IMG/VR virus record: IMGVR_UViG_3300031670_000658
Location: 1 to 27,282 of that record
Reading direction: 5' to 3' (one strand)
DNA from: a virus
DNA: 27,282 bases
The notes beneath the pieces were generated by a model. It was not told the origin of the DNA. It made no database searches and saw only the letters and a program-made list of their open reading frames with translations. This document shows, piece after piece, positions 6,360 to 27,078 of the stretch. Within the stretch, counting starts at the first letter, position 1; each line of letters starts with the position of its first letter. Position numbers and translations under genes: made by a program.

Positions 6360-6374
6360 AGAAACGGATTTGTG

Positions 6375-7061: not shown

Positions 7062-7197
7062 GGAGGGATCTCAAATCTGAGATTTCAGATTTGAAATTGA
7101 TGAATCATCCACCATCAATTACCAATCAGCGATCTCCGAATCCCTCGGCTAATCCCCAATCCCCAACCCCTAATCCCTATCTCTTAGCCCCTAATTC
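6987..7197. repeat. Composite palindromic repeat splitting the terminase gene
   Basis: The left arm is rich in GGGATTGGGG/GGGATTAGGG (6994-7065). The centre holds CAAATCTGA (7072-7080) pairing with TCAGATTTG (7085-7093). The right arm carries CCCCAATCCCCAACCCCTAA (7155-7180). It is similar in plan to the elements at 9634-9827 and 12692-12800. Confidence 0.8.
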
Positions 7198-8194
7198 CTG
7201 GTCGGCCCATTGGTGCGACATCTACGAAGCGATCCGCCAGGGGCTGAAGATCAATCTCGAACTGCTGCGTTCCGGCTGCGACGATGAACCTACCTGGCAA
7301 CAGGAATTTTGCTGCCAGTTTGTTTCGACTGCGGAAAACTTCTTTCCTCCCGAACTCCTAGCCGCCTGCCTAAGCGCCGAGGCCAGAGCTGACACTCCGC
7401 CCTTCCTGCTGGCCTCGGCGCGCGGCACAGGTGATTCCGGCACCCGGTTTGGTAGGGGCGGGTTTCAAACCCGCCCCTACAGCGAATCCGACGGCAATGC
7501 GGATTTGTCCGAGTTCTTCCTGGGCATCGATATCGGGCGGCAGCACGACCGGACGGTGTTCTGGCTGGATGAGGTGCAGATTGTAGGGTCGGGTTTCCAA
7601 CCCGCCCCCGGCACGAACCCTGATGAGAGGGCGGGTCAGAGCCCCGCCCCTACAGAGAATCGGCTCTCGATCACTCGCATGGTGCGCACGCTTGACCGCG
7701 CGCCCTTTGCCGAACAACTGGCGTTTGCCCGCGAGCTGCTTTCCCTGCGCCGGGACGATGGCACGCTGCTGGTGCGCCGCGCGGCCATCGATTCGACGGG
7801 AATCGGCGCCATGCTGGCGGAAACTTTGGCGGCGGAATTCAATCCGCGGGTTGAGCCGGTGACGTTTACGGCGGCCCGGAAAGAAGAACTGGCTTTCCGA
7901 ACCAAACGCCGGCTGGAAAATCAGCTATCGCTGCTGCCCGACACGCGGGAAATCCGGCGCGCCTTCAGCGCCGTCAAGAAACTTGTTACGCCGAGCGGCA
8001 ACCTGCGCTTTGACGCGGTGCGCACCGCCTCGGGCCACGCGGACGAATTCTGGGCCAAGACCCTGGCGGACCTGGCGGCTGCCGAAGAAGAGCCTAAATC
8101 GAGCGCCGCCGACGCTTATCTCGCGGCGGGCACGCCCATCGTCAACCCGCGGGCGTTTACGGAGTTGGAAGCGGGATGGGCCAAACTTTTGTAG
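7100..8194 (+). CDS. Large terminase, RNase H-like nuclease part
   Basis: 364 residues from ATG 7100 (TTG 7091 also possible). No ribosome-binding site lies within usual distance. The first about 33 residues (QRSPNPSANPQSPTPNPYLL) are translated repeat. Genuine terminase starts at SWSAHWCDIYEAIRQG. The nuclease acidic residues appear as FFLGIDIGRQHD (first Asp), RRAAIDSTGIG (second Asp) and GHADEFWAKTLADL (third Asp), the order seen in terminase nuclease domains that cut concatemers. Two palindromic repeats are embedded in frame, one before the first acidic motif and one between it and the second. The stop TAG (8192-8194) is supplied by a further repeat, so the C-terminus may be shortened. 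The frame is -1 relative to the ATPase part. Confidence 0.8.
   Translation: MNHPPSITNQRSPNPSANPQSPTPNPYLLAPNSWSAHWCDIYEAIRQGLKINLELLRSGCDDEPTWQQEFCCQFVSTAENFFPPELLAACLSAEARADTPPFLLASARGTGDSGTRFGRGGFQTRPYSESDGNADLSEFFLGIDIGRQHDRTVFWLDEVQIVGSGFQPAPGTNPDERAGQSPAPTENRLSITRMVRTLDRAPFAEQLAFARELLSLRRDDGTLLVRRAAIDSTGIGAMLAETLAAEFNPRVEPVTFTAARKEELAFRTKRRLENQLSLLPDTREIRRAFSAVKKLVTPSGNLRFDAVRTASGHADEFWAKTLADLAAAEEEPKSSAADAYLAAGTPIVNPRAFTELEAGWAKLL
7452..7480. repeat. GTAGGGG-type repeat translated inside the terminase
   Basis: A perfect 29-base palindrome (14-base arms around one base) read in frame as RGGFQTRPY just upstream of the first nuclease Asp motif. Confidence 0.9.
7583..7653. repeat. Second GTAGGGG-type repeat translated inside the terminase
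   Basis: A 71-base two-arm copy read in a different phase as VGSGFQPAPGTNPDERAG and then QSPAPT. It lies between the LDEVQI strand after the first Asp motif and the RLSITRMVRTLD segment. Confidence 0.9.
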
Positions 8195-8324: not shown

Positions 8325-9662
8325 ATGATGAAACTTGGACCGATTGAAATCGCCTGGAACCCGGGAATGCTAGCTGAATCGCAGGTGAACGTTCCGCTGG
8401 AGCGGACCCGTGCAAGCGCGGAGACGCTGCCCGCGGGACTGCCGGGGACGCCCATCTTCCACGGTTTTCTGGAAGATTTCGGCGAGTACAATCCGCAGCT
8501 TGAAGGGCTCACTGCCATTCGGACCTATGAAAAGATGCGGCGCTCGGACGCGCAGGTGGCGGCCACACTGCTCGCTTGCGAACTGCCCATCCGCGCCGCC
8601 AACTGGGACGTGCTGCCGGCCACGAGCAATCCGCTTGACCAGGAAATTGCGCAGTTTGTTAAAAACAACCTTTTTGGCGGCCTCGAATACGTATCGCCCG
8701 GCGGCGTGAAGTCTACCCAGTGCTGGGACGACGTGCTGCGGAACGCGCTGCTGATGCTGGCGTTTGGCGCCGCAGCGCACGAAGATATCTACGCCGTGGA
8801 TGGCGACCGGGTGCGTCTGGCGCGCCTCTCGCCCCGGCTGCCCATCACCTTTTACCGCTGGATCACGGACGTGGACGGCGAAACCCTGGTGGCCCTCAAC
8901 CAGTACGGCTACCGCAATTCAAACTTTGAGAGCGTCGAGATTCCGGTGGACCGCCTGACGGTTTTTACCTTCAACCAGGAAGGCGCGAACTTCTTTGGGC
9001 GCTCCATGCTGCGTCCCGCCTACATGCACTGGTACATCAAACACCAGCTCTACCGGATCGACGCCATCGCCGGCGAGCGGAACGGCCTGGGCGTGCCCAC
9101 CATCGAGCAGGGACCGAACGCCTCCAAAGAAGACCGCCTGGCCGCCCAAGCCTGGGTGACACAACTCGCCGCGCATGAGAAGACCGGCCTGGCGCTCCCT
9201 GCCGGGTGGAAGTTTACCTTGCAGGGCGTGCAAGGCCAGGTGCGCGACCTGTTCAATTCTATAGAACACCACAATGTGGAAATATCCAGAACGGCTCTCG
9301 CCTTTTTTATGAACCTGGGACAGGGCCACTCGAGCGGCAACCGGGCGCTGGGGCAGGAATTGACCGACTTCTTCTTCCTGGCCGTGCAGGCCACCGCCGA
9401 CCAGATCGCGCGAACGATTTCGGCAACGTCGGTGAGGCGGCTGGTGGACTACAACTGGGACGGCGTGGAGCGGTATCCGACGCTGACGGTTTCAAACCTG
9501 CGCTCGCGGAACCTGGATCAGACGCTGACCGCCTTGAGCCAGCTTGCGCAGGCCAACGTCGTCGCGCCCTACCCGGAACTCGCGCAACACATCGCGCGCG
9601 AGCTGGGACTGCCGCAGCCGCCACAGACAGGGAATGGGGATCAGGGATTGGGGATTGAGTAA
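8325..9662 (+). CDS. Portal protein, Mu gp29-like (DUF935)
   Basis: 445 residues. DUF935 portals form the dodecameric ring at the capsid vertex through which DNA passes. Support comes from the order of conserved-type segments: YEKMRRSDAQVAATLLACEL, RAANWDVLPA, LLMLAFGAAAHEDIY (the portal GFSxxE-like region), LPITFYRWITD, FNQEGANFFGRSMLRPAYMHWYI, GLGVPT, and a helix-rich C-terminus with FFLAVQATADQIARTI. ATG codons at 8325 and 8328 follow a GCAGGA ribosome-binding site. The last residues (TGNGDQGLGIE) are translated GGGGATT-type repeat, so the natural C-terminus has been replaced. The MuF/gp30 head protein normally following is absent. Confidence 0.9.
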   Translation: MMKLGPIEIAWNPGMLAESQVNVPLERTRASAETLPAGLPGTPIFHGFLEDFGEYNPQLEGLTAIRTYEKMRRSDAQVAATLLACELPIRAANWDVLPATSNPLDQEIAQFVKNNLFGGLEYVSPGGVKSTQCWDDVLRNALLMLAFGAAAHEDIYAVDGDRVRLARLSPRLPITFYRWITDVDGETLVALNQYGYRNSNFESVEIPVDRLTVFTFNQEGANFFGRSMLRPAYMHWYIKHQLYRIDAIAGERNGLGVPTIEQGPNASKEDRLAAQAWVTQLAAHEKTGLALPAGWKFTLQGVQGQVRDLFNSIEHHNVEISRTALAFFMNLGQGHSSGNRALGQELTDFFFLAVQATADQIARTISATSVRRLVDYNWDGVERYPTLTVSNLRSRNLDQTLTALSQLAQANVVAPYPELAQHIARELGLPQPPQTGNGDQGLGIE

Positions 9663-9827
9663 TTGGAGATGGAGGGATTGATGATTTGCGATTGAGTGAT
9701 TGGAGATGGAAGGATTGGTGATTTGCGATCGGAGGATTGGGATCTGTGATTGGTGTTTGAGATTCTCGAATCTGAAATCTCAAATTTCAAATGACAAATT
9801 CCTAATCCCCAAGCCCTAATCCCCGGT
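9634..9827. repeat. Composite palindromic repeat in portal-protease gap
   Basis: The left arm GGGGATCAGGGATTGGGGAT overlaps the end of the portal gene. The middle holds two degenerate copies of GATTTGCGAT-GGATTGG. A central inverted repeat pairs TTTGAGATT (9756-9764) with AATCTCAAA (9776-9784). The right arm is CCTAATCCCCAAGCCCTAAT. No coding sequence is seen in the gap. Confidence 0.8.
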
Positions 9828-9844
9828 TTCGAGAGGAGAACGAA

Positions 9845-10996
9845 ATGCTGAGCACCTTGGAGCTAGAGACAACACCTCGATTTATGGCCACGCTCGAACC
9901 CCAGGCGGGCAAGAGCGCGGGACGAGTTCGCATTCCGCTGGCCATCGCCGGAACCTGGGCGCGCGGAACCCATAAGTTTTCCATCACGCCGCAGGATCTC
10001 GAATCGATTGGGCGCAACTTTCGCGAGCGACAGAACGGCGAAATCAACGTGGACTATGACCACGCCAGCGAAATGCCGGAAGTCGCCGCCGGCGGCCCGA
10101 TCCCCTCTGCCGGACGGATCGTGAGCATCGATCCGCCGGAAACCTCGGGCCGCCGCACCATCCTTTGGGGGTGGTTTGAACCCACCGAGCGCGCCCGCGC
10201 GCTGATCCAGAACCGCGAGTACCGGTACATCTCTCCCGCGATCGACTGGGGAGCCCAAAACAAACGGACCGGCAAAGCGCAAGGCGCCACGCTCACTTCC
10301 GTGGCGCTCACCAATCGCCCGTTTCTCGAAGAAATGCCGCAAATCCGGCTGGCCGACCCGGCGTACCGCCTGGTCGACAGCACGGCCGGAGTATCGGATG
10401 CCGGCGTCCCCGAGGACGCCCAACCTACAGGAGGTTCTATGAAAAAAGTTCAGCTTTCCGTCGCCGACGGAAAAATCAAAATCAACCATCCCGACCTTAC
10501 GGACGAGTACTACGCCGATCCGGACGACGTTGCAAACGCCCTGACGGCGCTCGGCAACTCGCCCGACGCGACACCCGCCGCAGACACCCGTGAAGTTCCG
10601 CTGGCCCAGGCGGCATCGGTGCTGTCCGAAGCCGAGGCCCAGGGCAAATCCATCGCCGCCGTCGAGTTCTTCCGCGCACGCGTCGAACAGGCGCTCGACG
10701 ACGCGGTCCGATGCGGCAAAGTTCTGCCGCGCCGCCGCGAGGACTGGCGCCGCATCGCACTCGCGGATTTCAACACCTTTACAAGACTGATGTCCGAGCA
10801 GACGGCCCGCATCCCGCTGCGGCCGACGGGCTTCTCCGGAGGTATCCCGGAGAACGTTCAGGCGCAGGTGAAGTTCCTGGCGGAACAGCGCATGCGCGAA
10901 CGCAGCATCAGCTACGGCCAGGCGCTCAGCGAAATCGGCCGGGAACAGCCCGACTTGATCCATCACTATCGCCGCGCCGTGAGCGGGGGCGAGTAG
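9845..10996 (+). CDS. Capsid maturation protease/scaffold, Mu gpI-like
   Basis: 383 residues from ATG 9845 with a GAGAGGAGA ribosome-binding site. The N-terminal half matches the Mu prophage I protein family (head maturation protease): RVRIPLAIAGTWARGTHKFSI, the catalytic-region motif INVDYDHASEM (near residue 70), SAGRIVSID, and YRYISPAIDW...GATLTSVALTNRPFL. After a linker (STAGVSDAGVPEDAQPTGGS) comes a helical scaffold-like half. An AGGAGG four bases before an in-frame ATG at 10439 suggests a separate shorter product. The enzyme would cleave scaffold and capsid during head assembly. It lies directly upstream of decoration and capsid genes, as in Mu. Confidence 0.88.
   Translation: MLSTLELETTPRFMATLEPQAGKSAGRVRIPLAIAGTWARGTHKFSITPQDLESIGRNFRERQNGEINVDYDHASEMPEVAAGGPIPSAGRIVSIDPPETSGRRTILWGWFEPTERARALIQNREYRYISPAIDWGAQNKRTGKAQGATLTSVALTNRPFLEEMPQIRLADPAYRLVDSTAGVSDAGVPEDAQPTGGSMKKVQLSVADGKIKINHPDLTDEYYADPDDVANALTALGNSPDATPAADTREVPLAQAASVLSEAEAQGKSIAAVEFFRARVEQALDDAVRCGKVLPRRREDWRRIALADFNTFTRLMSEQTARIPLRPTGFSGGIPENVQAQVKFLAEQRMRERSISYGQALSEIGREQPDLIHHYRRAVSGGE
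10429..10434 (+). promoter_or_regulatory. Internal ribosome-binding site for the nested scaffold start
   Basis: AGGAGG inside the protease gene, four bases before ATG 10439 and at the junction between protease and scaffold-like halves. Confidence 0.5.
10439..10996 (+). CDS. Nested in-frame scaffold protein (Mu gpZ-like), putative
   Basis: 185 residues sharing frame and stop with the protease gene, beginning MKKVQLSVADGKIKI. The start is preceded by AGGAGG (10429-10434), the best ribosome-binding site in this part of the window. In Mu, gene Z is an in-frame 3' section of gene I that encodes the scaffold, so the arrangement is known. Here the product is mostly acidic and helical (QAASVLSEAEAQGKSIAAVE), suiting a scaffold. 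Not proven; the whole gene could also be made only as the long form. Confidence 0.55.
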   Translation: MKKVQLSVADGKIKINHPDLTDEYYADPDDVANALTALGNSPDATPAADTREVPLAQAASVLSEAEAQGKSIAAVEFFRARVEQALDDAVRCGKVLPRRREDWRRIALADFNTFTRLMSEQTARIPLRPTGFSGGIPENVQAQVKFLAEQRMRERSISYGQALSEIGREQPDLIHHYRRAVSGGE

Positions 10997-14102: not shown

Positions 14103-14657
14103 ATGATTCAAAAATATCAAGCCCAATTCGCAAAGCCGTTAGTCGATCAACTGATTGCCATCTTCCAACGCGACCAGCAGGCGGCGCTCGATATTGTCAA
14201 CGCCGCGCGGCCGGCGGGACGCCCGCTCGGCGCCTTTGCCGCATTCTTAAAAGAAGCAGCGCCGATTCAGAACTGGCCGGCCCTGGTTCTGGTCGCTCAG
14301 CAGGTGACCTTCGATCTTGCGAGCGACCTCGATGTGCGGAGCGAGGCCCTGCATTTCTTTTGCGCCGCGGCCCTGGTGGGCACAGACCCTGAATGGATGG
14401 CTGAGGACGCCATGGACACGCTGCGGGTTGTCGATATCGTTCTAACTTCCGTGCCGCTTTCGGACTTTTACACGCCGCTGGCCATCAGCCACACGACCGT
14501 CCCTGGCGGCCTGACACCGGGGCTTGATCCGGCGGTTTCCAAAATCCTGGATCTCCAAATCATCCGGCACGACCTGGGCGCCCTGGTTGCGCGGCGGGGG
14601 GGGGCGCTGGCGCGCGGCCCGCAAATCGAATTCGTAATTGATTTGGAGGAACGATGA
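14103..14657 (+). CDS. Neck/tail completion-type phage protein, function unassigned
   Basis: 184 residues from ATG 14103, with GGAAGAG six bases upstream; TTG 14091 is the longer alternative. Helical N-terminus (QFAKPLVDQLIAIFQRDQQA), then alternating strands (WPALVLVAQQVTFDLASDLD, ALHFFCAAALVG, LRVVDIVLTSV) and a C-terminal ALARGPQIEFVIDLEE strand. The fold pattern and position, after gpG and before the tail tube (interrupted by a beta-helix gene), suggest a tail terminator/DUF1834-like role. I cannot name the family from sequence. A G-run (GCGGGGGGGGGCGC near 14600) is a place to check for sequencing slippage. Confidence 0.6.
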   Translation: MIQKYQAQFAKPLVDQLIAIFQRDQQAALDIVNAARPAGRPLGAFAAFLKEAAPIQNWPALVLVAQQVTFDLASDLDVRSEALHFFCAAALVGTDPEWMAEDAMDTLRVVDIVLTSVPLSDFYTPLAISHTTVPGGLTPGLDPAVSKILDLQIIRHDLGALVARRGGALARGPQIEFVIDLEER

Positions 14658-14688
14658 TGAGAACGCGCTTTCAAAGGCTTGGCGACTG

Positions 14689-14770
14689 GCGACGTGGGAT
14701 TGAAGGATTGGAGATTGGGCGATTGAAGGAATTGGCGATTGAAAGGTGGATGACTGAAGGATTGGAAATC
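14689..14770. repeat. GATTGAAGGATTGG low-complexity repeat
   Basis: A string of GATTGAAGGATTGGAGATTG-like units between two genes. It keeps the frame of the beta-helix gene open upstream, which creates a spurious N-terminal extension (to 14654). Confidence 0.7.
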
Positions 14771-16762
14771 ATGAAATCAGCAAATCTGGCAATCGGTAAA
14801 TCCCTGCTTCTCGCCTCGCTTTTCCTGGCGCTGGCCGGCAACGCACTGGCGCAGACCAAGACCACGGTTACCGACACTCTCTACTCTCCTGCCGGAAACA
14901 CACTCTCCGGCACGATTACCATCGCCAACAACGCCACCTTTACGGCTGCGGATGGCACGATTGTGCCCAAGGGGACTATCGCCACTGCCACAGTCGCCAA
15001 TGGAACTTTCTCCGTGGCGCTCGTGCCAAACACAGGCTCCACGCCGTCTGGCTCAAGCTACAACGTCATCTACAGCTTAGGTAGCGTCTACCTTAACGAG
15101 ACTTGGGTTGTGCCGTCTTCCGGTCCAGTGGGTCTGGCTGCCGTGCGGACTAGCCCTCCACCATCCCTTAATGTGCTGATTGCGGCATCGCAATTGCCGG
15201 CGACAATTAACGGATCGGCCATTGAAGACAAGGGCGGACAAGTCTTCAATGTTAAATCCTATGGAGCCGCAGGCGATGGGACAACGAACGACTCAACAGC
15301 GATTGCGGCGGCGGAGACGGCTGCTGCGGCTTCGCACGGTGTGGTCTTTTTCCCTTGCGGAACTTACGAAGTAGCCTCGGGACTGACGATTTCCGGCTCG
15401 CTCAGCTTTGAAGGCAGCGGGCAATCCTGCTCGACTATCCAGGCGACTGCGGCGCTTACGGGCGACGAAATCTCCGTGGCAGCTTCCGGCGTCACGTTCC
15501 GCCACATCACTATCGACGCCGCGCAACACGCTTCCCACGCCATTGCTGTTGCCGTAGCTGCGTCGAACGTTACGCTGGAGCAAGCGACGGCGGAAAACTC
15601 GCAAGGATTTAATTTTTCTGCATCGGGTCCGGGTATCTCCAATCTTCTTGTAACGGATTCCACTTTTGTGGGCGGAGGCCCTGGGGATTTCTATTTTGGG
15701 ATGTCGGGAAGTTATTCGGCGTCGAACGTCCGCATCGTCAACAGCACGTTTGGGAGCACCGCAGCGCCGTCGAATCTCGATGCGGGCCAAGCGCACGTTT
15801 CTCTTTACGTCACCACAGCATCGGGAGCGGCACTTTCCGGGGTAACCATTGCCAACAACCAAGTCTACTTCCCGATCCTGGCCGCGCAAGAGTCAGACGG
15901 CATCGTCGTCGCGGCAGGGCTGACGAGCGTTGGAACACTTTCCAACGTCACCGTAAGTTCGAATCTCATTGAAGGAACGCCGGGCACGAATCCCGCCTAT
16001 TACTCCAATGGTTTGGAAGTGGGAAACGCCGATGCGGTGACGATCTCCAGCAACGTCCTTATAAACGGGCAGCACGGTATTTTGGTAGAGCCGGACACGG
16101 CCAACGATGCGATTCATGGCAGCATCACCGGCAATTATGTGAGCGACGCGCTGACCGGAGCGACCAACGCCATTGACATCAGGGGCTACTGCTTATATTC
16201 GGCAGTCGGGAATTATGTTCAGTCGGGAACTGCTGGCGCGGCCATCAGCCAGGCGGGGCAAGGAGCCGTCTCCGGCAATCAGATCATTGCCGGTCAGCAT
16301 GGCATCATCGTCAACAACGGCGGGGTGCCCGTCAGCGGCAACACGATCACAGAAAGCTCTGCAACCGGCTATCCCATTGAGATGCGCTGCCTTCAGGCGT
16401 CCGCATGCCTCAGCAATTCGGTGACCGGAAACACGATCCACGGGCACGCGAGCGGCTACGGAATTTACTTCGTCAATTCCACGCAGCCCTTCGCCAACCT
16501 TTCGGTTTCAGGGAATACGATCGACAGTTCGTATTACGGCATTATTTTTAACACCACGGGCGATTCCGGGATCATCGGCAACAACAGCTTTTCTTCCGTC
16601 ACCAAGCCTTATTATGCCATTCCGGCAGCGGTAGTGTCTGCACAGGTTGGCTCCGCCGCGCCCAGCGGATCGTGCGCGAACGGCAGCCGCTACGTTAATA
16701 CAGCAGGCGGCTCGGGAACTACGTTCTACGGCTGCGAGGCTGGTGCGTGGGCGGCGAAGTAA
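14771..16762 (+). CDS. Secreted-type right-handed beta-helix protein 1 (tailspike-like)
   Basis: 663 residues from ATG 14771; the open frame to 14654 is translated repeat. A classical signal peptide (KSANLAIGKSLLLASLFLAL, then AGNALA/Q) opens the protein. Next is a beta domain of about 100 residues (SGTITIANNATF...). Then DKGGQVFNVKSYGAAGDGTT begins a pectate-lyase-type right-handed beta-helix, the entry motif shared with many phage tailspikes, with many NNxI/SGNxI coils up to about residue 620. The last 37 residues (SAAPSGSC...YGCEAGAWAAK) recur in the second beta-helix protein. It could bind or degrade surface polysaccharide. A signal peptide is odd for a virion protein, and so is the position inside the neck/tail genes. 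Confidence 0.8.
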   Translation: MKSANLAIGKSLLLASLFLALAGNALAQTKTTVTDTLYSPAGNTLSGTITIANNATFTAADGTIVPKGTIATATVANGTFSVALVPNTGSTPSGSSYNVIYSLGSVYLNETWVVPSSGPVGLAAVRTSPPPSLNVLIAASQLPATINGSAIEDKGGQVFNVKSYGAAGDGTTNDSTAIAAAETAAAASHGVVFFPCGTYEVASGLTISGSLSFEGSGQSCSTIQATAALTGDEISVAASGVTFRHITIDAAQHASHAIAVAVAASNVTLEQATAENSQGFNFSASGPGISNLLVTDSTFVGGGPGDFYFGMSGSYSASNVRIVNSTFGSTAAPSNLDAGQAHVSLYVTTASGAALSGVTIANNQVYFPILAAQESDGIVVAAGLTSVGTLSNVTVSSNLIEGTPGTNPAYYSNGLEVGNADAVTISSNVLINGQHGILVEPDTANDAIHGSITGNYVSDALTGATNAIDIRGYCLYSAVGNYVQSGTAGAAISQAGQGAVSGNQIIAGQHGIIVNNGGVPVSGNTITESSATGYPIEMRCLQASACLSNSVTGNTIHGHASGYGIYFVNSTQPFANLSVSGNTIDSSYYGIIFNTTGDSGIIGNNSFSSVTKPYYAIPAAVVSAQVGSAAPSGSCANGSRYVNTAGGSGTTFYGCEAGAWAAK

Positions 16763-18189: not shown

Positions 18190-19053
18190 ATGGCTGGAAA
18201 TAACGCTGCTGAGCTTCTAATTCGTATCGCCGCCGATCCTTCCCAGGCGGAATCGAGCATCCAGGAATTCCGCTCGAAGTTCGGGTCGAACTTGAGCGGT
18301 ATGACCTCGGATATCTCGCAATGGTCGAGCCAGGGGACGAAGAATTTCGGGGGCGTGCAGCAATCCCTCGGAGGACTGACCACCAGCTTCGGCAGCAGCC
18401 TGGGCAGTCTGAATACTTCCTTTAATCAGAGCCGGCAAACCGCCACGCTGTGGAGGTCGGATATCTCGAGCGCTTTTACGACGGCCATGAGTGCATCCGG
18501 GGCTTTGCAAACGAGCCTTCTGGGAAGCTTCCAGTTATTTGACTCCGCCCTGGTCCGAAACATCGGCAATGCGAGCGTTTGGCAGAAGAGCGTGGGCCAG
18601 GCTTTCGAGAAGGCTGCTTTGACCTCCATCAGCGCCATCGCCAAAGAAGCGATTGTCCGAGCTCTCTTTTCGACCGCGCTGGGTTTCTACATGCTTGCTG
18701 TAGGCGACTTCGCGGGCGCGGGCCAGGCGTTTGAGGCAGCAGCGGTATTCGGGGCCGTGGGTGGCGCCGCGGGGCTCGCGAGCAGTGCGCTCGGAGGGGG
18801 AAGTTCCTCATCAAGCAAGAGCTCATCGGGCAGTACGTCCAAGACCAGCAAGTCTTCAACCAGTGCGCAATCGACCAGTTCCAAAACCTCTTCTTCTCAG
18901 CAACAGACGGTCCAGATCATTTTCCAGGGCCCGATTTACGGAGGTCAAGCGGGCATCGATCAGCTTACCCAGGAGATTTCGAGAGCCGTCCAAGAACGTG
19001 ATGTAAATCTTGTTGCCTACACCACCGTGCGGCAACCGGCAACGCGAGCATGA
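18190..19053 (+). CDS. Tail tape measure-like protein, very short
   Basis: 287 residues from ATG 18190. The N-terminus AGNNAAELLIRIAADPSQAE is typical of tape measure proteins. It is followed by Ser/Gly-rich heptad-like sequence (SSLGSLNTSFNQSRQTATLW), a central hydrophobic, Ala/Gly-rich stretch (about residues 150-205: ALFSTALGFYMLAVGDFAGA and AAAVFGAVGGAAGLASSALG) that could insert in the host membrane, a Ser/Lys/Thr-only linker (about 205-240) and a C-terminal strand VQIIFQGPIYGG. Tape measures usually exceed 600 residues; at roughly 0.15 nm per residue this one implies a tail near 40 nm. It may be an internally deleted form. Confidence 0.65.
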   Translation: MAGNNAAELLIRIAADPSQAESSIQEFRSKFGSNLSGMTSDISQWSSQGTKNFGGVQQSLGGLTTSFGSSLGSLNTSFNQSRQTATLWRSDISSAFTTAMSASGALQTSLLGSFQLFDSALVRNIGNASVWQKSVGQAFEKAALTSISAIAKEAIVRALFSTALGFYMLAVGDFAGAGQAFEAAAVFGAVGGAAGLASSALGGGSSSSSKSSSGSTSKTSKSSTSAQSTSSKTSSSQQQTVQIIFQGPIYGGQAGIDQLTQEISRAVQERDVNLVAYTTVRQPATRA

Positions 19054-19139: not shown

Positions 19140-19526
19140 ATGGCAAACCCTAAAATCGTTTACACACCGGCGGGCGGAACGGAGCAGACTTTGAACTTCT
19201 CTTCTCCTCCCAGGCAACAGCCCGGATACCTGAAGACCGCCATCCGGCATGACAACATTTCAACGGCCGGCGTCCGTGAGTCGGTCCTGGAGCGGATCGA
19301 CGCCTTCCTGGAATTTACGATGGATTACCTCCAGGCGGGAACAGACTTGGCGAACTGGGCGGCGTTTCTCGACTATGCGCTCACCGGAGGTCCGTTTGCG
19401 TTTTATCCCGATGCGTCCCAGATGGGGTACGTCAACTGCATGCTCGAAAATACGGACGCGCAAATTGCCTACAAGGCGCCGGGATTGTATTCGCTCACGC
19501 TGAAACTCCGGCAGCAAGTTACATAG
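19140..19526 (+). CDS. Distal tail-type phage protein, function unassigned
   Basis: 128 residues from ATG 19140. Beta-rich N-terminus (PKIVYTPAGGTEQTLNFSSP), a conserved-looking RHDNISTAGVRESVLERIDAF helix-strand, and an aromatic stretch (FLEFTMDYLQAGTDLANWAAFLDYALTGGPFAFYPD), ending YSLTLKLRQQV. The position directly after the tape measure and before the hub is that of the distal tail/baseplate ring protein in siphophages, and the strand-rich ends agree. No diagnostic motif, so the role is positional. Confidence 0.6.
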   Translation: MANPKIVYTPAGGTEQTLNFSSPPRQQPGYLKTAIRHDNISTAGVRESVLERIDAFLEFTMDYLQAGTDLANWAAFLDYALTGGPFAFYPDASQMGYVNCMLENTDAQIAYKAPGLYSLTLKLRQQVT

Positions 19527-19596: not shown

Positions 19597-19779
19597 ATGG
19601 CGATTCAAACGAACCCCAGCTTTGACACGAACAACGCGGCGCTGGTCAAACGTCCGCTTTACGTCCTGATGATCGAAGGCATCGCGTCACCCCTTACAAC
19701 GTTCCGTCCCCAAGACATGCAGGTTGCGGTCTCCGGTTACGGAATGAGCGGATATGGGACGACGGGATACGGCTACTAA
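19597..19779 (+). CDS. Probable N-terminal fragment of the tail hub protein
   Basis: 60 residues from ATG 19597: AIQTNPSFDTNNAALVKRPL, YVLMIEGIASPLTTFRPQDM, then a Gly/Tyr repeat SGYGMSGYGTTGYGY before TAA. The first strand-forming part resembles the very start of central tail hub proteins (about 500 residues) of related phages, which continue after the Gly/Tyr turn into a DxGxxPYLxVPxG segment. Exactly such a segment (DFGRMPYLKVPQGV) lies 2.7 kb downstream inside the 1328-residue protein. I infer that a large module was inserted between the two. It could also be a functional small tail protein. Confidence 0.5.
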   Translation: MAIQTNPSFDTNNAALVKRPLYVLMIEGIASPLTTFRPQDMQVAVSGYGMSGYGTTGYGY

Positions 19780-19809
19780 AGGCAGAGGCCTGCAAAGAGA
19801 GGAGAAATC

Positions 19810-19885
19810 CAATTACGAATGACGAATTACAAATTACAAAAGGCAACATCTAAGAACGGAAATGCGTAATTCATAATTCGTAATT
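19810..19885. repeat. AATTACGAATGACGAATTAC palindromic repeat
   Basis: The left arm AATTACGAATGACGAATTAC, the centre AAAAGGCAACATCTAAGAAC, and the right arm GTAATTCATAATTCGTAATT lie in the gap between hub fragment and large fusion protein. The fusion gene has no visible ribosome-binding site because of it. Confidence 0.8.
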
Positions 19886-19893
19886 TTGCGATC

Positions 19894-22800
19894 ATGTCGG
19901 AAGTCAACGATTATTTTCCCGGAAACCTTGACGCTACACTCGACGGCACGCTTGGTTGGCTGGTGGAGCGGATGAATGCCAACGTGTCGCCGTTCGCAGG
20001 AAACGCCGTCCAGACCCCGACCTCGGCAACCTTCATCGAAGGCGCAATCGACGCACTTAGTGTTTCCTACGCTAACCTGGCACAGGTTCAGGCGCCCAAC
20101 ATTGTCCTCTACCCGCTGGCGACGGCTCCCATCGATAACGCGAGCGGGCCTGACGGTTTCCCGGTCAATTACAGTCCAACGCCGCTGCTTTCGGGAACCT
20201 TGTTCGTCAACGTCCTTGAGATCACCGCCGCAGCGACCGTTAGCGGACGAGTTTTGAACCTTACATTGCCCGCTTCAAACTATCGGGTCGATGTCTATAG
20301 CAAGACCGGCGCGTTCTATTACCAGGGTTCAGCCACGCCCGCCGCGGACGGCACGTGGTCGGTCTCGATCGTTGCCGCGGGTTCGGTGATCGCCTTCCTG
20401 ATGCCCACCACGTCGTCGCAGCCGGCAGCGGGCTCGCAGGCTGCAAGCGTGACGGGGTGGGTTGCACACTCGAATATGGGTGTGGGGGCACAGCTTCAGG
20501 ATTACTTTGTCCGGGTCTATGTAATGACGGATGCCGAAGCTCTCCAGGAAGACAATATTCCGATCATGGTCCAAGACAGCGAACATGCGCGGTTTGGCTC
20601 GAGTATCGCCGTCGCCTCGGGCACGCCGGTTGCTCACGTGATCTACAACGACCCCACGCTCGGGCCCGTGGATCTCTACTCGACCCTCCAGCACGCCGCA
20701 GTCTATTCCGGCCTGCCGAGATCGATGGAGGTTTCGCCCGGTGATCCGGATTTTGTGAGCGGCGGTGAATTGACCAGCACAACGATGCCCGCCCTTCAAA
20801 ACCGTTGCTCGATCTATGATGCCGCGCTCGCGATCATCGCCTTTTCTCTCGCGGGACTGTGGGATTTGGCGGGAAACATTGTCACACGGCTCAACGATCT
20901 GCGGCTGAGCCCTGGTTACCTTCCCTCGGCGATGCTCGAAGACGCGCAAGACGGTTCAACGGCGCGATGGTCGCTCGCTTCAGGCAGCGGGTCCGTTACC
21001 AACGTCTTTGACCCAACAGAGCCGCCCGCCCAATCCGGGGGTTCGAACGTTATCACGTTCACCAACACGACCAACGCGAACCCTGCCGTCGCTGCTACGT
21101 GGAACTTTGCCGGCATCGAGCTGCCCGACGGCGTCGATTCGATTCTCGAATGGCGATTCAAGAGCGCGGTGGACTTCGACTTTGTTGTTGGCGTCACAAC
21201 GTCTACCGGCAAGATTACAACTTTGCGCTTTGCCTCGAGCGGAACTTCGGGTTACGACGCAGCCTCTAAAACGGCCACGCAGGTCTTATCGTTGGCGCAA
21301 AATACCTGGCAGATATTGACCCCGAACCTTGACGCTCTCGCGGCAGGTTATGTCGCCGGAGAAACGTTGACGTCCATCACTTCTTTTTCTGTCACTCTCG
21401 CGGCTGCCGGCGCCCTGAGCTTGGATGATCTCTCCGTGGGCGCGCCCAAGCCCGCCGGCTCCCTCAGTTTCTCCTACGACGTGTACAACGGCCAAGCCGA
21501 CCAGATTACCATCCGTTCCGGGCCGGTAGCCTGGCTTGCTTACGCCTATGGTATTTACATGGAGCGTACCGGCGACTTCAGCGGCGCTGCCGCCGGACTT
21601 CAGGACCTGCTCAATTTCCTTTTCTCGCTCCAGTCGACGGCCTCCGATCTGACTCAAAATCTGATGACGCTCGGCTGGGGACTCTATCAGGACCCAGGTT
21701 ACCAGTACGTGCCGGGGCGGATTGCAAGCGTTTCCACCGAAGACAACCTCGGCTGCTACTTCGCATTCGATAAGGCAGCCCGCGTCTTGCCGGCCGCGGC
21801 GCAAGCGCTCCTGACGAGCGAGCTGATTACGCAGGCCCAGTACGATGCTCTGGTCAATACGGCGAGCAACGCTTCCACCAAGGCCCAAGAGGTGAAGAAT
21901 GCCATCCTTAACCAGCTTTGGATTCCGGCCGCGGGAAGTGTTAAAGGGCACTTCGCCGAAGGAGCGTCGGCTTCGGACCTGACGGACTCTTACGGCTTGG
22001 AGCCTTCCGGCTCGTGGGCGGCGCTTTTCTGTCACGAAACCGGCGACGACGTGAAAGCAGTCTCCTCGCTGGAATTCGCCTACGAGAACTTCTTCCTGGC
22101 CGGCCAGCAGATTTTGCCGAATTCGACTGCCAACGGCTATAACGAAACCTACCAACAGCTCACGCCCTTTGACGGCTTCAAGCCGTATGCGGACTCGGCG
22201 AGCGGCTATGCCGGCTCGCCGAAAGCGATCTGGGCGGAAGGAAGCTGGGGCGCGATCGCCGCGTATCTCCGGCTCAGCGACAACAGCGATCTCGAAACCT
22301 ACTTCAGCTCGGCTTATCCCGGGGGGCTGGCGTCATTCCTGACAGACCTGGTCGCAAGCATGGCGACGATGGCCGGCACAACCAGCTCCAGCGGCGTCCT
22401 TTCATTCTCGCTTGCTTCGCGCGCGTTGCCCTGGGAAGTTTCGGTGCGCAAGACCGTAGCCTCCACGGCCTGGCTATGGATCACGGCAAGCCGCAATGAC
22501 ATCCTGTTCACAACGCTCACCACAGACTTTGGCCGGATGCCCTATCTGAAGGTGCCGCAGGGCGTGCAGCAGAACATCAGCCTGCTGGGCGGCACAACGT
22601 CCATCGGCTCGCTCCAACTTGAGGTCATTGACGGCCGCGGTTCTATGACGGCGCTTGCGAGCGGCGCGAAACTGGAAGGGCGCATTGTGAGCCTCGAAAT
22701 CGGCTACCCCGGAATGGGGTCAGCGGATTTCGTGACGGTGGCGACCCAGCAGATCGACAACATCCAAATCTTGAATGACGCGACGGGTTTCCAAATTAAC

Positions 22801-23880
22801 TGCACGGACTTAAAGCGCACGGCGAAGTCGCAGATCTTCCTTACGGGCGATGATGGATCCCCCATTTCGAAGGACCACCCCAGGCAGCTTTCAGCCAACC
22901 CGATGGATATCTGCCTGATGGTTTATCAGAACGAGCTGGGCCTGGGCCAGGCGCCGGAGTTGCCCGATTCGGCATGGAAGATTTACGATCCCGCGCAATG
23001 GTCCGGCGATACAAACCCGACACTGATCACGCCGAATCCCTTCCTTGACCTCGATCAGTTTCTGTTCTATCGCAAGGGCTTTTTCGCGGGCTACATTTTT
23101 GAGTTCACCCTGGAGCAGGCTGTGGAGGCCAAACAGTTCCTGGATTACGAAGTTTTCAAAACGCTGGGCGGCTATCTGATCGTGCTTTCCGATGGCCGCC
23201 TTTCGCTGCGCTTTTTTACGCCGCCGTACGACTTTTCAAACCTCTTCGCATTTAACGACCGGAACGTCACCGCGCTGCCCAAGGTGGACCGCCAGCCGAT
23301 TACGAACCAAGTCACCTTCCGCATGGACTACGACGGCTCCAAGTTCCTAACGGAGATGGATTACGAAAACGCTCCTTCGCTCCAGCGCTTTACTCTGGCG
23401 GGTGAAGACATTATCGAATCAAAAGGCATTCGGACGGCGCGCGGCGGCGCTGCGCTCGCGGGGATCACCGCCCGGCGCATTTTCAGCCGTTTTTCCGGAA
23501 TCGATCCCGTGACGGACCGGCCCACAGGAGGCGCGATGGTTCTGACGGTCACCGCGCAATATATGACGCTGACCGTCGAGGTGGGGGACTTGGTGTACTT
23601 TTCGCATCCCCTCGTGCCCAACCTTCGTACCGGGCGCCGGGGAATCTTTAACGAGATTTTTGAAGTCATCGACAAGCAGCCCGACTATTCAAAAGGCACG
23701 ATGACTTACAAGCTGTTGGATACGAGCTGGCTCAGTTCCAAAATTCTCTCGCTCATCGCTCCCGCGGGCACGCCGCCCTGGACCGCCGCCACGAGCGCCG
23801 AACGGAACCGTTACATGTTTCTTTCCAGCTCGGCAACCGGGGCGTATTCGGACGGGACTTCAGGCAAGACGGTCTGGTGA
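19894..23880 (+). CDS. Fusion of glycosidase-like module and central tail hub
   Basis: 1328 residues from ATG 19894. Residues 1-345 are beta-rich and unrecognised (LPASNYRVDVYSKTGAFYYQ). About 346-520 look like a carbohydrate-binding jelly roll (AMLEDAQDGSTARWSLASGS ... GALSLDDLSVGAP). About 525-860 resemble an (alpha/alpha)-barrel glycosidase: SGPVAWLAYAYGIYMERTGD, VSTEDNLGCYFAFDKAA, SPKAIWAEGSWGAIAAYLRL. From Asp878 (DFGRMPYLKVPQGV) to the end the sequence is tail hub-like: LGGTTSIGSLQLEVIDGRG, EGRIVSLEIGYPGM, KSQIFLTGDDGSPISKDHP, FEFTLEQAVEAKQFLDYEVF, LVYFSHPLVPNLRTGRRGIF. The hub closes the tail and holds fibres. The enzyme-like part may digest or bind host surface glycans. Domain calls are by pattern, not alignment. 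Confidence 0.7.
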   Translation: MSEVNDYFPGNLDATLDGTLGWLVERMNANVSPFAGNAVQTPTSATFIEGAIDALSVSYANLAQVQAPNIVLYPLATAPIDNASGPDGFPVNYSPTPLLSGTLFVNVLEITAAATVSGRVLNLTLPASNYRVDVYSKTGAFYYQGSATPAADGTWSVSIVAAGSVIAFLMPTTSSQPAAGSQAASVTGWVAHSNMGVGAQLQDYFVRVYVMTDAEALQEDNIPIMVQDSEHARFGSSIAVASGTPVAHVIYNDPTLGPVDLYSTLQHAAVYSGLPRSMEVSPGDPDFVSGGELTSTTMPALQNRCSIYDAALAIIAFSLAGLWDLAGNIVTRLNDLRLSPGYLPSAMLEDAQDGSTARWSLASGSGSVTNVFDPTEPPAQSGGSNVITFTNTTNANPAVAATWNFAGIELPDGVDSILEWRFKSAVDFDFVVGVTTSTGKITTLRFASSGTSGYDAASKTATQVLSLAQNTWQILTPNLDALAAGYVAGETLTSITSFSVTLAAAGALSLDDLSVGAPKPAGSLSFSYDVYNGQADQITIRSGPVAWLAYAYGIYMERTGDFSGAAAGLQDLLNFLFSLQSTASDLTQNLMTLGWGLYQDPGYQYVPGRIASVSTEDNLGCYFAFDKAARVLPAAAQALLTSELITQAQYDALVNTASNASTKAQEVKNAILNQLWIPAAGSVKGHFAEGASASDLTDSYGLEPSGSWAALFCHETGDDVKAVSSLEFAYENFFLAGQQILPNSTANGYNETYQQLTPFDGFKPYADSASGYAGSPKAIWAEGSWGAIAAYLRLSDNSDLETYFSSAYPGGLASFLTDLVASMATMAGTTSSSGVLSFSLASRALPWEVSVRKTVASTAWLWITASRNDILFTTLTTDFGRMPYLKVPQGVQQNISLLGGTTSIGSLQLEVIDGRGSMTALASGAKLEGRIVSLEIGYPGMGSADFVTVATQQIDNIQILNDATGFQINCTDLKRTAKSQIFLTGDDGSPISKDHPRQLSANPMDICLMVYQNELGLGQAPELPDSAWKIYDPAQWSGDTNPTLITPNPFLDLDQFLFYRKGFFAGYIFEFTLEQAVEAKQFLDYEVFKTLGGYLIVLSDGRLSLRFFTPPYDFSNLFAFNDRNVTALPKVDRQPITNQVTFRMDYDGSKFLTEMDYENAPSLQRFTLAGEDIIESKGIRTARGGAALAGITARRIFSRFSGIDPVTDRPTGGAMVLTVTAQYMTLTVEVGDLVYFSHPLVPNLRTGRRGIFNEIFEVIDKQPDYSKGTMTYKLLDTSWLSSKILSLIAPAGTPPWTAATSAERNRYMFLSSSATGAYSDGTSGKTVW

Positions 23881-23947: not shown

Positions 23948-24433
23948 ATGGCTCAAATGACCTTTGCGACGATGCCCGGCTTCGTCGATATCCCCGATGG
24001 GAATCTGGCGGCCGACCAGCCACTGACCGATTACGACCTGACCAAGATCTCGAATAATGCCAAATTTGCCGCCGTGCGCCCGGAAACGTTTTACGGCTGG
24101 TACAAGAACGGCGAAACGGTCCTAATCCCCGTCAGCCCCGTCGATGGCTACGTGTACGCTCGGGCGGAACTTGGATACGAGGTGGCCGCGTGGTGCTCGC
24201 GCTCGCCTGCCGGAGGGGCCGCGACGAATGGGGCCCTCTCGAAACCCGCGCTGGCGGATGTGAACGACGGCCCCGGCACCCTGTTTCTGATGGACTTCTG
24301 GGTTGAAGAGAAAAACGAGGCCAATCCCGGCCTGGTTCACTGCGAGGTCCACTATTGGAACAACGGAACGGAAGTTTACACGAACGGCGGGTTTGTAAAA
24401 GTGCGAACGATAGCGGCCCGGCTATCCGGTTAA
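23948..24433 (+). CDS. Tail tip protein, function unassigned
   Basis: 161 residues from ATG 23948 with GAGGAG nine bases before. Contains PGFVDIPDGNLAADQPLTDY, ISNNAKFAAVRPETFYGWYK, SPVDGYVYARAELGYEVAAW and a C-terminal beta run (LFLMDFWVEEKNEANPGLVH, VHYWNNGTEVYTNGGFVKVR). Rich in aromatic residues, with no signal peptide or transmembrane span. The hub gene upstream and fibre gene downstream suggest a tail tip or fibre-attachment protein. The family is not recognised. Confidence 0.6.
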   Translation: MAQMTFATMPGFVDIPDGNLAADQPLTDYDLTKISNNAKFAAVRPETFYGWYKNGETVLIPVSPVDGYVYARAELGYEVAAWCSRSPAGGAATNGALSKPALADVNDGPGTLFLMDFWVEEKNEANPGLVHCEVHYWNNGTEVYTNGGFVKVRTIAARLSG

Positions 24434-24502: not shown

Positions 24503-25168
24503 ATGGCAGTCGTCAGAACAGTTCTTCCGCGCAAGGGAATCATCGAACCGCAGCACGGCGCGAATTACGAAACCGATCTTGATACGAATTGACAGATTAT
24601 CGACAGCCTGTTGCAGGACGCCAATGACGTCCAGGCGGCGATTTCGGCGGCTCCAACGGTTTCGGCTTGGGTGTCGGACCGCGGGATCTCCGGCGTGGTT
24701 TCGGGGTTCACCCTCGCGACCTCTGCAACCCTGGTGCCGGGGCTGGTGGCGGGCGTTCTTTACGCCCAGGGCGCCCGCTTTGCGCCGACTTCGTCGCTTG
24801 CGCTTGCTGCGGCCCCCGCAAGCTCGACAAGCTACCTCTTTTATAACGCCACAGGGGGTTTCTATTACAACCTGACCGGCGTGGCGGGGACGGCGGGCGA
24901 CGCTTTTATCGGAGTGGTAGTAACGAACGCCACGGCCGTGACGTCGGTCGCTCAGGCCACCAAGATCTGGGGACAACTGCTGGTCGCCCCGGGTGTGGCG
25001 GGCAACTTCAGCGTCCCCCACCTGCTGGGGCGCACGCCCGTCGGCGCACGGGTTCAGATGACGGCGAGCGGCGCGATCTGGTTCCAGTCGCTCGCGATGT
25101 ATGACAATACGAATCTCTATCTGGTCGCTTCCGATCCCGGGGTGACCGCAAAGGTACAGATATGGTGA
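24503..25168 (+). pseudogene. Tail fibre/receptor-binding adaptor gene with in-frame TGA
   Basis: ATG 24503 (GAGG five bases upstream) gives AVVRTVLPRKGIIEPQHGAN then YETDLDTN before TGA at 24590-24592. The same frame continues QIIDSLLQDANDVQAAISAA and on through a 185-residue remainder to the TGA at 25166. Such proteins usually have a Trp where the TGA is (TNW-x-IIDSLLQD), so a TGG-to-TGA change is the simple explanation. Without it the product would be 221 residues. The C-terminal part (GNFSVPHLLGRTPVGARVQM, ASGAIWFQSLAMYDNTNLYL) is the strand pattern of short fibre-tip domains. A restart at TTG 24611 has no ribosome-binding site. Its end overlaps the next gene (ATGGTGA). Confidence 0.7.
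24590..24592 (+). other. Premature TGA replacing an expected Trp codon
   Basis: Codon 30 of the fibre adaptor gene. The reading frame on both sides is protein-like and unshifted, so a single base change (TGG to TGA) accounts for the break. Confidence 0.65.
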
Positions 25169-27078
25169 AAATTATGAATTATGAATTGCGAATTGCGAAC
25201 TGGGCAGCGGCGCGAGTCCTTCTTGCGATCTGCGTCTTGTTATGGGTCATTTGTGATTCGTCATTTCTTTTTGCGCAGCAACCGCAGGCGCCGGCCGGTA
25301 CGCCCCTTTACTCGGTGAATGCCAAGTATGTGAACGGCATGGCGCCCGGCTACGGGCCGACTGCCGGAAACGGTCTCGCACTGAACCTCAGCTCCGGTAC
25401 GGCTTATTGCGGCAATCCTCCGAGTCCGGCGCCCTATGCGGGCGGCACCCTGACCCTGAGCCCCAGCACGACGAATTACGTTTATCTCGATCCCGCCGCG
25501 AGTTGTGCGCCTGCGGTTAGCACCGCGGGTTTCTCAGTGGGCGCGATCCCGATCGCGGAAGTTATCACCGGAGCCTCCTCGATCACAACCCTCACTGACG
25601 AGCGGACCTGGTCCAGCCCGAACCCGGCAGCAATGAGCAGTTCGGGAGCGGTTCAGGTTTCTGCCCTCGGCACGAATCAGAACATTACGCTCTCGCCGAG
25701 TGGAACGGGAGCGTCGGTGATTACAAACTTGGCCGACAAGGGCGGACAAGTCTTCAACGTGAAGGCTTATGGAGCGCTGGGCGACGGGACAACGAACGAT
25801 AGTCCGGCATTTCAGGCGGCTTATAACGCGGCGGTTGCGGCGGGCGGTGGCACTGTTCTGATTCCTCCCACCAGTTCCTGCTACCTTTTCAATCAAGCGA
25901 TCAACATGACCTCGACGGCGGGTCTCGCGATGCAGGTTATCATTCAAGGCACAACTCGAGGACGGGGCGGTGCCGGGTCTGGCGCTACGGACTTAATCTG
26001 TGCCAATACTGGCGGGATCGTCTTTGACTTGGCGGGCTCTAACGGAATCAGTTTTTACAATATCGCTGTTACATCGCAGCACGGGGTAACGAATCCCAGT
26101 TTAATAGGGATTTACGTTGCGAGGGATTCCTCCGGAAACGGTGGACAAGGCATTAAGGTGATTGATTCCGTGTTTGATATGGTAACGCATTCGAGCGGCA
26201 CGACTTATTCTTTTGGCGCTTATCTTTACGCCTCGGAAGACGACTATTTTACGAGAGATGTGTTCGATGCCGATTATCCGCTGGTTGTCTCCACGACGAA
26301 CGATTTTACCCAAAACAGCGCGTTCATCACCGAAGCCACAGGTGCACACTCGGAAACTCAGGATTCGTTCACAGACATGGAATTTGGCTCTTCGGGCCTT
26401 GGGCCAGCAGCTTATTTCAACGGCACGGCCGATATGACCTTGACGGGCCACGTCTGGAATTTTGGGCAGGCAAATCCGTACCCAGCAGCACTCTATAATT
26501 ACGCATTGGAGTTTAAGGGATCGAATAGCTCGGCATTCGTCAAATTCCGGCAGGAGGGTTATCCTGGCTGGGCTTCCGTCACCCTCAGTTTGCATAACTG
26601 TCAGTTTTACGGGACAACCGCGCCGGGGGCAACAACTCCCCTTTATGGTATCTCGTTCGCCGATTCTTCCTCGATTCTCTCGGGCGATGTATTCCATATC
26701 AGCGATGAGTACGCCTCGGCGTCGTCGAATGCTTATTACTACAGCAGCGGCGGCGTAGCGGTGTTGGATGATGTGAGTTTCTATTGCGGCAATGAGACAA
26801 ACTGCGGCAACATTCCAGTAGGGAACTATCAGCCGGGAGGATGGTCACTCTATCAGGCAGACGTTCGCTACAGCGGCAGTCAGGTTAATGAGCATCCCAC
26901 TTTTACAACCACGGGATCGGGCATCCTGACGAGATTTCCAAACAGCGCGGCGACGATCAGCTTTGGAAGCGGCGCGCCATCGGGAAGCTGCGTCACGCCC
27001 TCTCTTTATCTCAGAACGGACGGCGGGACTTCCACAACGCTCTACGTCTGCGAGTCAGGCGCCTGGGCCGCGAAGTGA
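25162..27078 (+). CDS. Secreted-type right-handed beta-helix protein 2 (tailspike-like)
   Basis: 638 residues. The start used is ATG 25162, overlapping the preceding stop; ATG 25174 is an alternative. The N-terminus MNYELRIANWAAARVLLAIC, VLLWVICDSSFLFA/QQ works as a signal peptide but is encoded by an AATTATGAATTATG-type repeat. Residues about 55-170 are a beta-rich stalk (GGTLTLSPSTTNYVYLDPAA). DKGGQVFNVKAYGALGDGTT (near residue 192) opens a pectate-lyase-type beta-helix running to about 590. It ends in GAPSGSC...YVCESGAWAAK, as in the other beta-helix protein. Last gene of the tail block, the usual place for a receptor-binding spike. Polysaccharide binding or cleavage is inferred. Confidence 0.8.
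   Translation: MVKIMNYELRIANWAAARVLLAICVLLWVICDSSFLFAQQPQAPAGTPLYSVNAKYVNGMAPGYGPTAGNGLALNLSSGTAYCGNPPSPAPYAGGTLTLSPSTTNYVYLDPAASCAPAVSTAGFSVGAIPIAEVITGASSITTLTDERTWSSPNPAAMSSSGAVQVSALGTNQNITLSPSGTGASVITNLADKGGQVFNVKAYGALGDGTTNDSPAFQAAYNAAVAAGGGTVLIPPTSSCYLFNQAINMTSTAGLAMQVIIQGTTRGRGGAGSGATDLICANTGGIVFDLAGSNGISFYNIAVTSQHGVTNPSLIGIYVARDSSGNGGQGIKVIDSVFDMVTHSSGTTYSFGAYLYASEDDYFTRDVFDADYPLVVSTTNDFTQNSAFITEATGAHSETQDSFTDMEFGSSGLGPAAYFNGTADMTLTGHVWNFGQANPYPAALYNYALEFKGSNSSAFVKFRQEGYPGWASVTLSLHNCQFYGTTAPGATTPLYGISFADSSSILSGDVFHISDEYASASSNAYYYSSGGVAVLDDVSFYCGNETNCGNIPVGNYQPGGWSLYQADVRYSGSQVNEHPTFTTTGSGILTRFPNSAATISFGSGAPSGSCVTPSLYLRTDGGTSTTLYVCESGAWAAK
25174..25275. repeat. AATTATGAATTGCGAATTGC repeat encoding a signal peptide
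   Basis: The left arm is ATGAATTATGAATTGCGAAT. A weaker right arm lies at GTCATTTGTGATTCGTCATT (25246-25265). Unlike other copies it sits inside a gene and is translated. Confidence 0.6.

Follow-up and report, generated by a model that had tools for sequence, protein, structure and literature searches.

A tail hub probably assembled from two gene products

The virus examined here, which belongs to a family of uncultured phages, likely builds its tail hub from two pieces, the larger of which would present an exchangeable, N-terminal carbohydrate-active cassette at the tail tip. The window, that is, the whole 27.3-kb virus record analysed, carries a head block (terminase, Mu-like portal, Mu I-like protease, capsid and virion morphogenesis genes) followed by tail genes. 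Among the latter, a 60-residue protein (19597..19779) is separated, on the plus strand, by a 114-nt spacer (19780..19893) from a 1328-residue open reading frame (19894-23880). The small protein consists of a split-off N-terminal piece of the hub (residues 1-43) and a GYG-x3-YG-x3-YG tail (residues 44-60), while the large one consists of a module of about 870 residues (1-876) and the rest of the hub (residues 877-1328 plus the stop, 22522..23880), with homology to one-gene hubs starting from PYLKVPQG (22540). An earlier note on this DNA had proposed that the 60-residue protein, ending in SGYGTTGYGY, and a hub-like region starting at TDFGRMPYLKVPQGV would join to a hub of about 510 residues. The coordinates and residues of both frames proved correct, the hub-like part starts at 22522, and the joined length computes to 512 residues, as compared to mostly about 440-465 residues for natural one-gene hubs, which have no GYG tail.

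The surrounding genes are shared with relatives. The order of the genes starting at 18190, 19140, 19597 and 19894 is conserved, the first encoding a presumptive tape-measure-like protein of 287 residues and the second a 128-residue, probable distal-tail (Dit-like) protein (19140..19526, plus strand), whose role is suggested by gene order. The 128-residue gene lies upstream of the hub in most relatives, is conserved at 64-73% in the close ones, and had no match in Pfam and PHROG searches. Downstream, a 161-residue gene (23948..24433, plus strand), encoding a probable tail component, comes next after the hub in nearly all relatives, at 80-86% in the close ones. The tape-measure-like protein (18190-19053) is short, with 287 residues versus about 586-798 in relatives with one-gene hubs.

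The spacer does contain the AATTACG-type heptamers to which the earlier note had drawn attention, but a role for this repeat was rejected: similar heptamers occur at at least five other intergenic sites of the window, and the spacers are not conserved, those of the relatives being quite different and unrelated from phage to phage.

The 60-residue protein corresponds to the start of one-gene hubs

The family was opened by a scan with the portal protein, followed by scans with growing alignments; a single-protein scan of viral contigs with the window hub returned no matches. This approach recovered the relatives with an intact hub that the earlier note had called for, in 18 contigs. In the best cases, the start of these one-gene hubs reads TNxxFDAKNAALxKxPIYxxxI, resembling the 60-residue protein, and continues directly into WLKxPxGAxQ, which matches the window protein from residue 883 onward. 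A profile built from 17 split-off 60-residue proteins was then searched against all 5,097 open frames of at least 30 residues from these 18 contigs. All matches with E<=1 fell in the hub open reading frame, in 15 contigs, at the hub start and over profile positions 2-44, with the exception of an extra 9-residue secondary stretch in one contig (L052), and the GYG tail of the profile was never matched among the 5,097 frames. These data demonstrate, at the level of predicted proteins, that the 60-residue protein is homologous to the N-terminus of one-gene hubs, in agreement with the suggestion that it and the hub part of the large protein are two pieces of one hub. The first ~45 residues of the hub are now a separate protein of 60 residues, and the seam between the pieces is a loop of variable length, with a spread of about 11 residues across one-gene hubs. 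At the gene level the hub thus comprises two products, which would come together in the particle.

To describe the fold, the intact hub of a relative (L028) was modelled with AlphaFold2 from an alignment of 27 rows that included the hub part of the window protein (pLDDT 86.7, pTM 0.85). A Foldseek search with this model returned 57 PDB matches at E<=0.001, down to 4.6e-12, mostly hubs and VgrG proteins, including the MuSo2 43-kDa tail protein, Mu gp44, VgrG, pyocin, the T4 (gp27), lambda and T5 hubs, and the NF5 tail-associated lysin. The hub-like character assigned earlier to this region is therefore supported as a gp27/gp44-like fold, in which the equivalent of the 60-residue protein forms a helix (6-12) and two strands (20-25 and 30-33). 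A match of the hub profile to PDB entry 6f45 (E 0.64) was taken as chance.

Distribution and maintenance of the split

The 60-residue protein is encoded by its own gene in 18 distinct split phages, of which 15 carry the barrel module described below, two a GH18 module and one a small module. The GYG-x3-YG-x3-YG end is found in all 18 (slightly altered in L055 and L073) and in no one-gene hub. The motif was also scanned for in phage proteins at large, with a one-base spacing offset as out-of-frame control (48 stretches). Among the matches listed, in-frame copies are common in unrelated phage proteins, so that GYG alone is no marker of the split-hub system. These matches (L128-L207) are often in proteins of about 500 residues, with the pattern DITPxGFT..GYGxxxYGxxxYGxxRPD, and by profile they are unrelated to the 60-residue protein.

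In the hub tree, a single, weakly supported change (66/63) separates one-gene from split hubs, while at least two changes are required to account for the barrel-module label. The ratio dN/dS is about 0.28 for the 60-residue protein, 0.23 for the module and 0.15 for the hub, values showing that all three evolve under apparent purifying selection. As judged from these gene comparisons, the split is old, fixed and common to the 18 phages. The idea that the hub had been opened by an insertion holds as far as the break in the hub is concerned, but an old, fixed gene split bearing an exchangeable cassette describes it better.

Two other origins of the arrangement were weighed. The two open reading frames could be joined at expression into one hub chain, by frameshift, bypass or splicing, in keeping with their correspondence to one polypeptide in relatives. 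However, the relative frame of the two is 0, 1 or 2 depending on the phage, the stop codon of the small gene is TAA, TGA or TAG, and the spacers are unrelated, a variability that argues against frameshifting or splicing; in one phage (L040, 7672-8749), a stretch of ~1.1 kb with a membrane-protein-like open reading frame even lies between the two genes. Such joining is very improbable. Alternatively, the arrangement might be an assembly error or a decayed prophage peculiar to the window contig. Indeed, the window terminase (6372-8194) is split into two open reading frames by a GGGATTA/TAATCCC heptamer array at 6990-7180, whereas it is a single frame of 629-746 residues in three relatives. Yet 15 independent contigs with the barrel module share this gene order and these gene sizes, with purifying selection, which leaves this explanation with a negligible probability.

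Architecture of the N-terminal module

The module consists of a beta-rich N-domain (residues 1-302, 19894..20799), kept in all barrel-module relatives and with no known match, followed by an (alpha/alpha) barrel with a CBM-like sandwich inside. The barrel starts at residues 303-345 (20800..20928), a part that is modelled with helices at 307-337 and matches the YDxAL helix of stand-alone phage homologues, is interrupted by the CBM-like beta-sandwich (residues 346-520, 20929..21453) and resumes at residues 521-876 (21454..22521). The model of the module is of moderate quality (pLDDT 70). With it, Foldseek matched the barrel best to a glucuronyl C5-epimerase (2e-9, at a low TM-score) and then to GH116 (1e-3), and the sandwich to CBM11 (9e-5), CBM4, CBM30, CBM29 and CBM61. 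The two domains announced in the earlier note are thus both present, but not in succession, the barrel beginning before the CBM, which is nested within it.

A barrel profile deprived of the CBM matched a stand-alone protein of 668 residues in Coprococcus phage NatCom_10489 (E 5.6e-53), as well as Thermus phage phiYS40 gp30 (7.7e-16) and Microbacterium phage A3Wally gp84 (6.8e-15), while the sandwich profile matched none of these three homologues. Because the CBM-less profile matches a stand-alone phage protein, we consider the CBM to be an insertion inside the barrel. Eleven to twelve of the 14 module members match PHROGs families of phage tail proteins, some of them named tail fibre, and a BFVD fold search of the module returned tail and tail-fibre proteins at low TM-scores, with no single family. 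Sequence searches with the 1328-residue protein itself against Pfam, PHROGs, NCBIfam and the PDB gave nothing useful; Pfam had no match in it or in the members of the A4 alignment, and NCBIfam none in the 14 members. A distant homologue (L003) scored 24.8 bits against TIGR01577, below the cut-off of 820.7. The resemblance to GH15 or another (alpha/alpha)6 glycosidase is therefore one of barrel fold (pLDDT 70, low TM-score), with no family profile above its cut-off.

In two relatives, a second GYG-x3-YG-x3-YG motif, like the tail of the 60-residue protein, occurs in a loop inside the barrel (L076, 10175-10230; L078, 10067-10122). In L078, the module is also interrupted by ~1.3 kb with a transposase-like frame, resembling an insertion sequence (8709-10001), and this copy seems inactivated.

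Exchange of cassettes at the seam

Different modules occupy the same seam in relatives. In L024 and L025 it holds ~1,110-1,150 residues, which begin with a short PgaB-like segment and include a GH18 domain (PF00704, 1.3e-13 in L025). A polysaccharide deacetylase at this N-terminus was rejected as weak, the PgaB match covering ~80 residues and no NodB-type TFDDG being seen by eye. In L055/L056 the seam holds a 248-residue module with no known match.

Exchange is also visible among the barrel modules. Two phages, L022 and L075, resemble the window group at 62-71% in the hub and 60% in the 60-residue protein, and at ~45% in the module, with a switch at residue ~877. Compared with the window group over 60-residue windows, they are about 25-60% identical as far as residue ~870 and mostly 56-78% beyond it; with the other group, the values are about 30-64% before this point and 24-55% after it. 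Their 60-residue protein is 60% identical to that of the window group versus 31% for the other group. The module tree places both phages outside the window group (100/100), and forcing the grouping of the hub tree on the module data costs 183 log units (p-AU 3e-87); for the hub data, a window group without these recombinants was only marginally rejected (p 0.057). A faster clock in the module was rejected as the cause of this conflict: module and hub are equally conserved within the window group, and the distance of L022 and L075 from the other group does not exceed that of the window group. On this phylogenetic evidence, L022 and L075 are recombinants, carrying a foreign barrel module between a local 60-residue protein and a local hub. 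Since the 60-residue protein tracks the hub in these phages and the module and hub trees conflict, the small protein appears to belong to the hub and the module to be a swappable cassette. These comparisons demonstrate that the seam acts, as read from the genomes, as a recombination site at which whole cassettes are exchanged, while the 60-residue protein, the hub and the flanking genes stay.

This pattern bears on whether the small protein still serves the hub. The hub might work without its first hairpin, the 60-residue protein being a leftover or having another job, such as assembly chaperone or plug; its presence in the particle is a prediction from gene comparison, and the GYG tail, absent from one-gene hubs, is something extra. 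We regard this as unlikely. A leftover would decay, and the retention of the gene under purifying selection, as a full-length frame in 18 of the 18 split phages, counts against it, as does the fact that in L022 and L075 the protein follows the hub and not the module (60% versus 31% identity).

Is the module an enzyme?

The fold matches support the view that the module adopts a carbohydrate-active fold. By the earlier note, a fold search pointing to a structural and not an enzymatic domain would have refuted its proposal; the closest solved folds, glucuronyl C5-epimerase and GH116, are those of enzymes. Within the barrel, Glu782 of the W-x-EG-x-W motif (22237..22239) shows no variation among the aligned relatives or the three distant phage homologues, and the candidate catalytic residue Glu616 of STEDN/STEHN (21739..21741) is found in 13 of the 14 members and in the three distant phages. 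The exception, L020, has an arginine at this position and also reads EET for EGT. The fold matches make enzymatic action likely. The term glycosidase-like stands for the fold, but glycan degradation would be a further step, the top match being to an epimerase and L020 having an arginine in place of Glu616.

The module could instead be an adhesion device only, with the barrel a dead enzyme that holds polysaccharide. The substitutions in L020 are in line with this proposal, and 'evolved' Dit and Tal proteins that bear CBMs serve as binding devices. The near-complete conservation of Glu616 and the invariance of Glu782 speak against it, however, and so does the presence in relatives of a GH18 domain at the same seam, a domain whose DxE motif is retained in L025; this suggests that enzymes are the usual cargo. 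Pure adhesion is the less likely reading, but a substantial alternative.

Proposed arrangement and comparison with known systems

We propose that the 60-residue protein provides a gp27/gp44-like hub with its first helix and beta-hairpin and would complete the ring non-covalently, residues ~880-1328 of the large protein supplying the remainder. The chain end freed at the loop would bear the N-terminal cassette, composed of the beta domain and the (alpha/alpha) barrel with its CBM-like insert. Three hub subunits would close the tail, with one 60-residue protein filling each first hairpin, and three cassettes would lie on the axis at the tail tip. The cassettes may bind a host surface polysaccharide through the CBM-like domain, which the barrel would probably cut or modify before DNA entry, and the GYG tail may dock the small protein to a neighbour. 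A plausible starting point for the fusion is provided by the Coprococcus phage, in which the barrel gene directly follows the Prophage_tail hub gene. On balance, we favour the reading that the hub has been turned into a two-chain docking platform, in which the hairpin is provided in trans and the chain end can bear one of several cassettes, be it the epimerase/glycosidase-like barrel, GH18 or a small beta module, swapped exactly at the seam.

The earlier note knew of no phage with an enzyme fused to the central hub in this way, but hub-borne enzymes are already known in kind. In RcGTA and roseophage R4C, the central hub derives from two genes, hub and megatron; the megatron, of ~1300-1450 residues, has N-terminal adhesin-like and peripheral domains before the hub-ring 'central' domain, and in R4C inserted carbohydrate-binding domains too (PMC7296036, PMC10276861). 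The authors of the T5 study noted that hub and megatron together align with the T5 hub (PMC10038345). In RcGTA and R4C, the product of the first gene has ~290-300 residues and combines an attachment domain with oligosaccharide-binding and Fe-S cluster parts; RcGTA also has a peptidase gene (g14) between hub and megatron (PMC7296036, PMC10276861). Compared by description, the present system likewise has a two-gene hub, the second, large gene bearing N-terminal domains ahead of the ring. It differs in that the first piece has 60 residues, with no cysteine, instead of a ~290-residue product with oligosaccharide-binding and iron-sulfur parts, that the cut lies inside the first ring domain, that the barrel is of the (alpha/alpha) type and that the cassette varies between relatives.

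Tail-associated lysins also combine a hub and an enzyme-fold domain in one polypeptide on the tail axis, as found here. In 80alpha gp59 Tal, the hydrolase-like domain is C-terminal to a gp27-like hub that is unbroken (PMC7048315), whereas here the module is N-terminal (residues 1-876, before the hub at 877-1328) and the hub is split. Evolved Tal and evolved Dit proteins carry CBM insertions on a gp27-like hub or on Dit, in unbroken chains, and are described as binding modules (PMC7291167); they share with the present hub the decoration by a carbohydrate-binding domain, but not the split. Finally, stand-alone barrel tail proteins (PHROG 7032, 13714 and 37493; Coprococcus XTK82734, phiYS40 gp30) belong to the same barrel family, but are encoded by a separate gene, with neither CBM insert nor hub fusion. 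The present system stands apart in where the hub is cut, in the very small size of its first piece and in the exchange of cassettes.

The arrangement suggests how large enzymes can be mounted in nature on the tail axis of a phage with the hub fold unbroken: the hub gene would be severed at a loop, its small part retained and the newly created N-terminus made to serve as a socket. One socket with at least three different cassettes amounts to a natural experiment on the tail-tip enzymes needed for different hosts, and the two-piece hub lends itself to testing whether protein fragments complement each other in a virion.

Host and additional observations

The host probably belongs to the Acidobacteria (Acidobacteriota), as suggested by one near relative (L002) in the metagenome-assembled genome DBS1-3.bin89, on a contig of 1.25x coverage. 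Among 396 genomes of this phylum, the hub was found only in that genome and the barrel in none. At about 10001-10020 of the L002 contig, the terminase is joined to the end of the hub at a shared 11-mer, ACGGCGCGCGG; compared with window positions 6818 and 23434, this junction represents either a 16.6-kb deletion or a misassembly.

Elsewhere in the window, a 447-residue protein (181-1524) matches the PADLOC candidate defence family PDC-S11 in its C-terminal part (E 1.9e-6). Two pectate-lyase-like spike proteins (14654-16762 and 25162-27078) flank the tail block, and both end alike, with CESGAWAAK/CEAGAWAAK at the C-terminus.
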